DNA of 64,000 nucleotides from Reyranella humidisoli (GTDB taxonomy: Bacteria; Pseudomonadota; Alphaproteobacteria; Reyranellales; Reyranellaceae): positions 2,764,001 through 2,828,000 of the forward strand of contig NZ_JAHOPB010000001.1 in assembly GCF_019039055.1 (NCBI RefSeq), written 5' to 3'. The notes beneath the pieces were generated by a model. The model made no database searches and had not been told where the DNA came from. It saw nothing but the letters and a program-made list of their open reading frames with translations. Below, piece by piece: positions 20,012-21,246 of this stretch (position 1 is its first letter; each line of letters begins with the position of its first letter). A program made the translations under genes and the position numbers.

Positions 20012-21031
20012 TCAGGCCGCCAGCAGGTGCTCCGCGATCTGAACGGCGTTGAGAGCCGCACCCTTCAGCAACTGATCGCCCGCCACGAACAGCGAGATCG
20101 AGTGGCCGCTCGGATCCCCGAGGTCCTGGCGGATGCGCCCCACCAGGATGTCGTCCTGCTGGCTGGCATCGCGTGGCATCGGGAAGATGTTGCGCTCGCG
20201 GTCGTCGACCAGGCGCACGCCCGGCGCGTTGGCGAGCAGCACGCGCACCCGGGCCTCGTCGATCGGACGTTCGCACTCGAAGGTGACGGCGGCCGCATGG
20301 GCGCGCAGCACCGGCACGCGCACGCAGGTCGCCGACAGCCGCAGGTCCGGATCGCCGTAGATCTTGCGGGTCTCGCGCATGACCTTGGTCTCCTCGTCGT
20401 TGTAGCCGGTCTCGGGATCGATCGCGGTGTTATGACTGAACAGGTTGAAGGCGTAGGGGTGCGGCAGCACCCTGGGCTGGAAGGCGCGGCCGTCGAGATA
20501 GGCGCGTGTCGAGTCCGCGAGCTCGTCCATGGCCGCGGCGCCGGCGCCCGAGGCCGCCTGATAGGTGGCGATGGTCATGCGCCGGATGCGGTTGTGCTGA
20601 TGAATCGGCCAGAGCGGCGTGATGGCGATGATGGCCGCGCAGTTGGGATTGGCGACGATGCCCTTGTGGCCGGCGATGGCGCCGGCATTGATCTCTGGGA
20701 TCACCAGCGGTACCTCCGGGTCCATTCGGAAAGCCGAGGAGTTGTCGACCACGATGGCGCCGGCCGCGACCGCGATTGGGGCGTAGCGCTTCGATATGCC
20801 GCCACCCGCCGAGAACAATGCGATATCGACGCCCTCGAAGCTCTTCTCGGTGAGTTCCTGGACGACGAGCGCCTTGCCGTCGAAGGAAAGCTCGCGGCCC
20901 ACGGAGCGGGCGGAGGCGAGCAGGCGCAGCTCCTTCACCGGGAAACGCCGCTCGGCGAGGCAGCGCAGGAACTCCATGCCGACGGCGCCGGTGGCGCCAA
21001 CGATGGCTACTGTGAGAGGTCTCGAATTCAT
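20012..21031 (-). CDS. asd: Aspartate-semialdehyde dehydrogenase
   Basis: A 339-residue enzyme that reduces beta-aspartyl phosphate to aspartate semialdehyde with NADPH, the branch-point step to lysine/diaminopimelate, threonine and methionine. GATGAVG (residues 12-18) is the nucleotide loop, Cys131 in NPNCAA the active-site nucleophile, and YQAASGAG follows as in the family. AAGGAG is 7 nt before the ATG. It is the sole gene of its transcription unit, preceded by a threonine-rich leader peptide and a terminator hairpin. Confidence 0.97.
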   Translation of the reverse strand: MNSRPLTVAIVGATGAVGMEFLRCLAERRFPVKELRLLASARSVGRELSFDGKALVVQELTEKSFEGVDIALFSAGGGISKRYAPIAVAAGAIVVDNSSAFRMDPEVPLVIPEINAGAIAGHKGIVANPNCAAIIAITPLWPIHQHNRIRRMTIATYQAASGAGAAAMDELADSTRAYLDGRAFQPRVLPHPYAFNLFSHNTAIDPETGYNDEETKVMRETRKIYGDPDLRLSATCVRVPVLRAHAAAVTFECERPIDEARVRVLLANAPGVRLVDDRERNIFPMPRDASQQDDILVGRIRQDLGDPSGHSISLFVAGDQLLKGAALNAVQIAEHLLAA

Positions 21032-21070: not shown

Positions 21071-21106
21071 AAAGACAAAGGCCCCGTCCGAAACCGGCGG
21101 GGCCTT
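21071..21106 (-). terminator. Attenuator terminator hairpin upstream of asd
   Basis: On the minus strand AAGGCCCCG (21098-21106) pairs with CGGGGCCTT (21078-21086) over 9 bp, with a small inner CCG/CGG stem, followed by TTTGTCTTT. It lies between the leader peptide stop (21133) and the asd start (21031), the position of a transcription attenuator. The leader's GGTGGGCC can pair with its 5' arm (GGCCCCGCC, one bulged C) and so compete with terminator formation. Confidence 0.7.
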
Positions 21107-21132
21107 GAGGTTGTCCTATGTCACGTTCGACT

Positions 21133-21207
21133 CTACGCGCACGTCCTCGCCGGCCCACCGAAGGTGGTCGTTTTGGTCGTGGTCGTTTTGGTCGCGAAAC
21201 GCATCAT
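21133..21207 (-). CDS. Threonine-rich leader peptide of the asd attenuator
   Basis: A 24-residue reading frame with 9 threonines and 2 lysines; after MMRFA it reads TKTTTTKTTT, then FGGPARTCA and a TAG stop. The Thr codons are ACC and ACG and come from a repeated 12-mer ACCAAAACGACC. The start ATG (21207, or 21204) lies only a few bases after the predicted transcription start, so translation would be near-leaderless; no ribosome site is seen. Ribosome stalling at the Thr run when charged threonyl-tRNA is scarce would free the downstream segment to form an antiterminator. Direct evidence of translation is lacking. Confidence 0.7.
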   Translation of the reverse strand: MMRFATKTTTTKTTTFGGPARTCA

Positions 21208-21216
21208 CGTGGACCG

Positions 21217-21246
21217 GGTATAGGACAGAGGCCGGGCGAGTGTAAA
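21217..21246 (-). promoter_or_regulatory. Sigma70-type promoter for the asd leader
   Basis: TTTACA (21241-21246) and TATACC (21217-21222) are separated by 18 bp on the minus strand. Transcription would start near 21210, just upstream of the leader-peptide ATG at 21207. The -35 box lies 8 bp after the stop codon of the upstream dioxygenase gene, so asd need not depend on read-through. Confidence 0.5.

Follow-up and report, generated by a model that had tools for sequence, protein, structure and literature searches.

The window analysed here is a stretch of 64,000 nucleotides of the Reyranella humidisoli genome, and its minus strand carries an aspartate-semialdehyde dehydrogenase gene for which we use a name of our own, asd2. 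Its product scores 397.2 bits against the NCBIfam model asd_B (TIGR01296; cut-off 324.2), as does, at 454.9 bits, the product of another asd gene of the same genome, which is 47% identical to it. A dioxygenase gene (stop codon 21257-21255) lies directly upstream on the same strand, and the following features lie between its stop and the end of asd2:

21217..21246, minus strand: promoter-like pair, TTTACA (21246-21241), an 18-nt spacer and TATACC (21222-21217), with the expected start at about 21210; from the sequence and from its placement in relatives.
21133..21207, minus strand: leader ORF of 24 codons, MMRFATKTTTTKTTTFGGPARTCA, ATG 21207-21205, stop TAG 21135-21133; predicted to be near-leaderless.
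21163..21192, minus strand: putative sensor run ACC AAA ACG ACC ACG ACC AAA ACG ACC ACC (8 Thr, 2 Lys); from the sequence and a stall scan.
21155..21167, minus strand: predicted protector hairpin CCACC-TTC-GGTGG (regions 1:2), CCACC 21167-21163 and GGTGG 21159-21155; from the fold without a ribosome.
21145..21160, minus strand: predicted antiterminator 5' strand (region 2), CGGTGGGCC + GAGG; from duplex energy and the stall scan.
21095..21110, minus strand: predicted antiterminator 3' strand (region 3), CCTC + GGCCCCGCCG, overlapping the 5' arm of the terminator.
21071..21106, minus strand: predicted intrinsic terminator AAGGCCCCGCCGGTTTCGGACGGGGCCTT (arms AAGGCCCCG...CGGGGCCTT) at 21106-21078, followed by a T-rich tail; from the sequence and folding, and kept in relatives.
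20012..21031, minus strand: asd2, second aspartate-semialdehyde dehydrogenase gene, 339 aa, the gene presumed to be regulated (NCBIfam asd_B, TIGR01296).

The leader ORF contains nine Thr and two Lys codons, eight of the Thr codons falling within the ten-codon run. Its ATG lies about 3 nt after the expected start, the terminator hairpin begins 26 nt 3' of its stop, and the ATG of asd2 follows at 21031 on the same strand. The terminator folds at -22.7 kcal/mol and the antiterminator duplex (CGGTGGGCC/GAGG with GGCCCCGCCG/CCTC) reaches -24.6 kcal/mol. Thus, the promoter, the 24-codon leader with nine Thr codons, the terminator and the competing pairs that the original prediction had placed before asd are confirmed to the base on the minus strand, and folding and duplex energies bear out its set of protector, antiterminator and terminator. 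An end-product-rich short leader ORF and an intrinsic terminator between it and the gene are both present, as expected of an attenuator. A Thr-rich ORF of this kind (at least 8 Thr in 12 codons, 12-45 codons long, a threshold chosen after the window leader had been seen) occurs once in the window and in none of 50 dinucleotide shuffles. A scan of the window also lists a terminator-like site that overlaps the attenuator terminator with a different stem, and the inverted repeat of the protector on the opposite strand. We considered that this could be a known RNA element and rejected the idea: none of 4227 Rfam 15 families gave a match over the gathering threshold in seven stretches, the window and six relatives' loci.

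The other asd copy of the genome is a different matter. No leader of this build was seen by eye upstream of it, and none of the 48 matches in this genome to a leader model built from 22 asd leaders lies near it; the window element scores 105.5 bits with this model and the next best match in the genome 23.5 bits. The original prediction had spoken of a stand-alone asd gene. This holds in that a single asd copy stands behind the leader, and fails in that this is not the only asd of the genome, since the second lies elsewhere. A second, canonical asd at 44-50% identity is listed in all 25 genomes checked that have a leader-bearing gene of the asd2 type (10/10 and 15/15), genomes that had been picked for carrying the element. 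Outside the asd2 type, genome G117 (locus L185) has a Thr/Lys leader before its sole listed asd.

A search with the asd2 protein gave 59 named asd loci. At 65% identity or more there are 40, and 38 of them have a leader and terminator of the same build. The ten named records closest to the window, at 88-98% Asd identity, are titled Reyranella, Rhodospirillaceae or Rhodospirillales; more distant examples of the leader are MTTSTKATTKTKAPSGGSGAVRA in Bradyrhizobium, MTAMLKRTTKTTKPAGALVRARR in Rhizomicrobium and MTKTTTNTKTTTMGGRSGSCA in a metagenome-assembled genome (MAG) filed, perhaps wrongly, as Marinimicrobia. The two exceptions (L017 and L051, with an asd at 75% identity) have the terminator and no visible Thr/Lys leader ORF, and their leader part may have been lost. 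No Thr-rich leader was found at the 19 loci at 59% identity or less, which were scanned for Thr-rich ORFs only (six of them also by eye), so that a leader without Thr could be missed there. Among the oriented loci, the Thr count in 12 codons is 7-9 for L063-L073 and 1-5 for L074-L092, and the three cases with five (L081, L082 and L091) are one common frame that by eye resembles the antisense of a transporter gene. On the negative side, the asd leaders of L022 and L035 have one Thr each. L035 and L036 are two asd loci of one Acetobacteraceae MAG, and each has a leader MSGLMIKRTWNHKPSDG... with K, T, W, N and H codons and no Thr run.

Other samplings of the same kind gave similar pictures. Within Reyranella, the leader is present in all 11 genomes with an asd at 89% or more (the window included; these overlap the named loci), and is missing from all 19 loci examined whose copy is at 57-61%. 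Across the class, 9 of 12 copies at 62-75% (the window not counted) have a Thr/Lys leader; the other three (L170, L171, L173) and a 57% copy (L182) have none. The leader finder overlooks leaders with a poor T tract (for example L174, L179 and L181), and its misses are therefore not evidence of absence. When 75 Asd sequences (94 before thinning) are placed in a tree, 38 leader-bearing rows group with 4 leaderless ones in a single clade (100/100). L119/L158, L117/L121 and L185 fall outside this main clade, yet have Thr/Lys leaders, and the starred branches force at least four changes of leader state; the tree carries a long-branch warning, with L185 among the rows concerned. Taken across relatives, then, the leader and its Thr codons accompany asd, and the joint absence of run and hairpin that would have spoken against the idea is not what the close homologues display.

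RNAalifold on a MAFFT alignment (A1) recovers only the terminator: seven pairs, in two of which both sides change. The poor alignment of region 2 accounts for this, and partner-swap tests were therefore used. The predicted region 2:3 duplexes differ by clade, for instance GGGGCTGG/CCAGCCCC in L018, GGGCTTCGG/CCGAAGCCC in L016 and CTCGTGG/CCACGAG in L121. When partners are permuted among the 26 asd leaders, the leaders' own pairs average -28.5 vs -25.7 for permuted ones (z -4.8), with none of 20,000 permutations as low, and none of 20,000 is as good for the 42 leaders of three gene types. Outside the invariant core the effect persists (asd z -3.8, 3/20,000; all 42 leaders, 0/20,000), also for eight leaders sharing less than 66% identity, namely the window, four other asd, one thrS and two dapA (45/20,000). 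The leader's own antiterminator energy lies under its swap mean in 21 of the 26 asd leaders; counting against the match, only 3 of 26 rows have the leader's own partner as the best of all. These tests leave out 5 of 47 representatives. Not entered were L136, L142, L148, L158 and L180, which have no confidently located terminator, and L185, with an uncertain leader start. An antiterminator that excludes the terminator, with partners matched across species, is what emerges, with the proviso that shuffles and permutations do not remove relatedness among leaders.

The position of a ribosome was then considered through a stall scan, defined as the probability that the terminator 5' arm pairs upstream before its 3' arm is made. 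For the window this is 0.09 when no ribosome is present. A ribosome raises it to 0.73-0.74 on most codons of the run and to 0.67, 0.42 and 0.63 on its last three Thr codons; one codon past the run the value is down to 0.18, and at the stop to 0.02. Ahead of the run, stalls at codons 2-5 give 0.70-0.73, equal to those within it, and so only the downstream edge is informative for the run. Against the model, in the finished RNA at equilibrium the terminator is at 0.96-0.97 wherever the ribosome stands. Stall position thus matters before the 3' arm exists (0.42-0.74 in the run vs 0.02 at the stop) and not in the finished RNA, and the switch would therefore have to be kinetic, with timing deciding, as timing does in other attenuators too. 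In 32 of the 42 leaders no more than two codons separate the stall boundary from the last sensor codon. This is a modest argument, because boundaries dealt among leaders reach a mean of 26/42 and 24 of 2,000 deals do as well; other residue pairs reach 7-23/42. The protector is less general: pairing without a ribosome is below 0.3 in only 16 of 42 leaders, the window among them at 0.09. Taken together, conservation, the fit of antiterminator partners and the stall model support the logic of ribosome-mediated attenuation proposed at the outset. Sequence and computation show that the parts are present and conserved, that the antiterminator partners match, and that stall position affects the unfinished RNA.

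In 29 of 42 leaders the best promoter-like pair stops 6-9 nt short of the ATG, compared with a mean of 5.4 and a maximum of 12 of 42 in 40 rounds of a shuffle control. A strict promoter scan of the window omits the TTTACA/TATACC pair, the TATACC of which lacks the final T; the pair is supported nonetheless, since its position matches that in the relatives. With a start about 7 nt past the pair, the untranslated leader would be 0-3 nt, and the leader ORFs are thus predicted from promoter-like pairs to be near-leaderless. This feature had been called unusual, a view that does not stand: in the parts of these papers available to us, a leaderless leader ORF is already reported for trpL of S. meliloti (PMC10117765) and for several Streptomyces leaders (PMC8079986).

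The leader model was also used on 385 alphaproteobacterial genomes, with strict filters and eight candidates scored per genome. Among the matches listed, at least 33 reach E <=1.7e-9, at least 16 of them before asd, at least 11 before thrS and at least 6 before other genes; we left aside weak R1 matches (terminator only, or E about 1e-5), which resemble terminators arising by chance. The ThrRS frames behind the leaders are short, 12 of 13 having 395-425 aa (L104, L107, L108, L111-L114, L116, L118, L120, L130 and L140) and one, L146, having 647 aa. In the L108 protein, Pfam finds the catalytic and anticodon-binding domains and nothing else over the cut-off, and hence the N-terminal editing domain of full-length ThrRS is presumably absent from the short ThrRS. 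In the two genomes checked (G240 and G111), a longer ThrRS is also encoded. Similarly, a leader or leader-like frame precedes six dapA copies, the ones closest to that of L149 (59-100%), and each of their genomes also lists a dapA relative at 33-37%. One of them, L231 (G071), has a Lys-bearing upstream frame, ILKSKKTS, with no in-frame stop before the terminator, and was left out; assembly error, frameshifting or decay could account for the missing stop. With leaders before spare copies and main copies listed beside them, the rule may be an attenuated spare and an unattenuated main copy.

Further genes with such upstream regions were seen. Leaders of the same build (for example MTRFVRTANRKHMTRVCRAVEGVVR and ...KNAAMTRSGG...) with a similar terminator precede short frames in L131, L134, L145 and L154 (G431, G397, G233 and G103), and these frames carry a motif like LSDRELMDIGVTRAEID, which we take to be DUF1127-like. 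Similar terminators with short ORFs lie before GNAT acetyltransferase-like genes (L109, L132 and L150, the last confirmed by Pfam) and before ABC transporter genes (L133, confirmed by Pfam, L139 and L144), where leader composition points to no obvious amino acid.

The amino acids sensed can be approached through this set. We collected 77 leaders, reduced at 80% identity to 47 non-redundant ones (31 asd, 11 thrS, 5 dapA). Of the leaders, 35 had been chosen by Thr content among the 59 loci, L022, L035 and L036 by eye, 13 thrS, 18 further asd and 3 dapA leaders through the model, and those of L180, L185, L232 and L234 through a protein search; as the model was built on asd leaders, selection through it should favour Lys if anything. 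Among the 47, Lys makes up 12.0% of residues in asd leaders, 2.5% in thrS and 7.8% in dapA, and Thr 22.5%, 23.6% and 2.6%, respectively. Counted per leader, this is 2-5 Lys before asd (31/31), 0-2 before thrS (n=11) and 1-2 with 0-1 Thr before dapA (n=5). With relatedness not removed, asd and thrS leaders differ in Lys at p = 1e-6 and asd and dapA leaders in Thr at p = 6e-4 (Mann-Whitney). Two or more Lys occur even in 35 of 35 loci selected purely on Thr content, many of them closely related. The six codons that end at the edge include 57 Thr and 35 Lys of 156 before asd, 48 Thr and 2 Lys of 66 before thrS, and 5 Lys and 1 Thr of 30 before dapA. Lysine codons are therefore kept before asd and not before thrS. 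Asd supplies the lysine and threonine branches alike, threonine is the substrate of ThrRS and DapA opens the lysine branch, and so the leader codons fit each gene. The likely signal at asd is Thr and Lys, both made from the product of Asd, and what had been an aside, that lysine may also matter, becomes central.

It could instead be that the attenuator is real and senses Thr alone, the Lys codons being a by-product of an AC-rich run or serving to pace the ribosome. Thr is after all the commonest residue of the asd leaders, at nearly twice the share of Lys, and the window leader has only two Lys. We nevertheless consider this unlikely, given the scarcity of Lys in thrS leaders of the same build, the 12 of 26 asd leaders whose last sensor codon is Lys, the five dapA leaders with Lys and hardly any Thr, and the asd leader of L022 with four Lys and one Thr. 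We favour a two-input switch, inferred from these codons, in which a shortage of either Thr or Lys would suffice.

We consider the element very probably a ribosome-mediated transcription attenuator that controls the second asd copy, as the sequence and the stall model indicate. Transcription would start at the leader AUG or immediately upstream of it. Scarcity of charged tRNA-Thr or tRNA-Lys would stall the ribosome in the Thr/Lys run, where it would cover region 1, so that region 2 could pair with region 3 ahead of synthesis of the terminator 3' arm, and RNA polymerase would read into asd. When both charged tRNAs are plentiful, the ribosome would proceed to cover region 2, and the terminator would form. 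In this way the cell's Thr and Lys should affect termination and read-through. An additional role in trans for the terminated leader RNA or the peptide, as reported for rnTrpL and peTrpL of S. meliloti, has a precedent in a leaderless alphaproteobacterial leader in the accessible parts of the reports (PMC10117765; PMC7298713), but we hold it doubtful, since the C-terminal part of the peptide varies widely among leaders, as it should if pairing of the RNA were the conserved property.

The attenuator also follows asd rather than its surroundings. Dioxygenase and HTH genes adjoin asd in each of the 10 Reyranella-type loci; near asd in the 49 others neither is found (up to 3 kb either side, less in some), and 28 of those 49 have the leader and terminator; elsewhere the upstream gene is accA (L014) or a methyltransferase gene (L023). 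The leader goes with asd, not with the neighbouring dioxygenase gene. That the hairpin merely ends the dioxygenase gene, with the small ORF incidental, is therefore hardly credible despite the position of that gene directly upstream on the same strand in the window and all ten Reyranella-type loci, being ruled out by the 28 loci that have leader and terminator without it within up to 3 kb and at odds with matched antiterminator partners, which would serve no purpose in a plain terminator. Upstream genes facing away from the element (L016, L018 and L025) were considered and dropped; they are minus-strand ORFs without a Pfam match. On the downstream side, a LysE-type translocator/exporter gene (4020-4646 of L014) overlaps the end of asd2, which suggests an asd2-exporter operon under one leader, and in G195 the gene after asd2 is a dapA relative.

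The lysine and threonine branches share a precursor made by Asd, and a two-codon readout would be an economical control of this branch point; it is tempting to speculate that such a dual end-product readout could explain why the second asd copy is retained. Moreover, which codons matter could naturally be tested on the sister leaders, with mainly Thr before thrS and Lys before dapA. More broadly, the data would fit an alphaproteobacterial family of near-leaderless attenuators that puts spare copies of amino acid enzymes under starvation control (the second asd by Thr or Lys, the short ThrRS by Thr and the second dapA by Lys), with asd as a two-input branch-point sensor, a proposal to which we give even chances. 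Bacterial lysine control is usually credited to a riboswitch or to repressors; if the proposal is true, control through translation would be added, and the Lys leaders would to our knowledge be the first ribosome-mediated lysine attenuators.

Among known systems, the thr operon attenuator of enteric bacteria, thrL, has a Thr-rich leader, the same region 1-4 logic and an intrinsic terminator; in contrast, its leader is rich in Thr and Ile and precedes thrABC, whereas the window element has Thr and Lys codons, is near-leaderless by prediction and stands before a single asd copy. What appears to be new here is the breadth, the structure, the dual signal and the link to an isozyme, as judged from open-literature searches; an earlier description may lie in Vitreschak et al. 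2004, reportedly a survey of proteobacterial attenuators. In these searches only PMC10117765, in its available part, bears on a Thr/Lys leader before an asd-like gene; threonine attenuators are named in general terms in PMC1262725, the word asd is absent from the main text of PMC2965389 and PMC8632094, and no such element was seen in the available part of PMC1273637. Attenuation is thus a known kind of control, and a Thr/Lys leader before a gene named aspartate dehydrogenase was already suspected in Sinorhizobium (PMC10117765, in the part available), which qualifies the original prediction's view that such use is unusual. There, the S. meliloti sORF SEP5, with six Thr and three Lys codons clustered near its 3' end, sits in the 5'-UTR of a gene the authors term 'aspartate dehydrogenase', and is translated and 'possibly a leader peptide' (PMC10117765, 2023). 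Unlike the window element, SEP5 is said in that part to be conserved only in Sinorhizobium, and no analysis of a terminator or antiterminator is given there; we liken the two by description. As far as the accessible text goes, trpL/rnTrpL of S. meliloti is likewise a leaderless leader ORF in an alphaproteobacterium, but with a Trp signal and trp genes (PMC10117765). The S. lividans thrS leader shares a leaderless Thr leader before thrS, in an actinobacterium, with two Thr codons and termination that is not clear from the portion at hand (PMC8079986). Finally, uORFC-8-2 before cysS of Rhodobacterales is, in the section available, a proposed ribosome-mediated attenuator in alphaproteobacteria like the one described here, differing in its Cys signal and in the gene that follows (PMC8632094).
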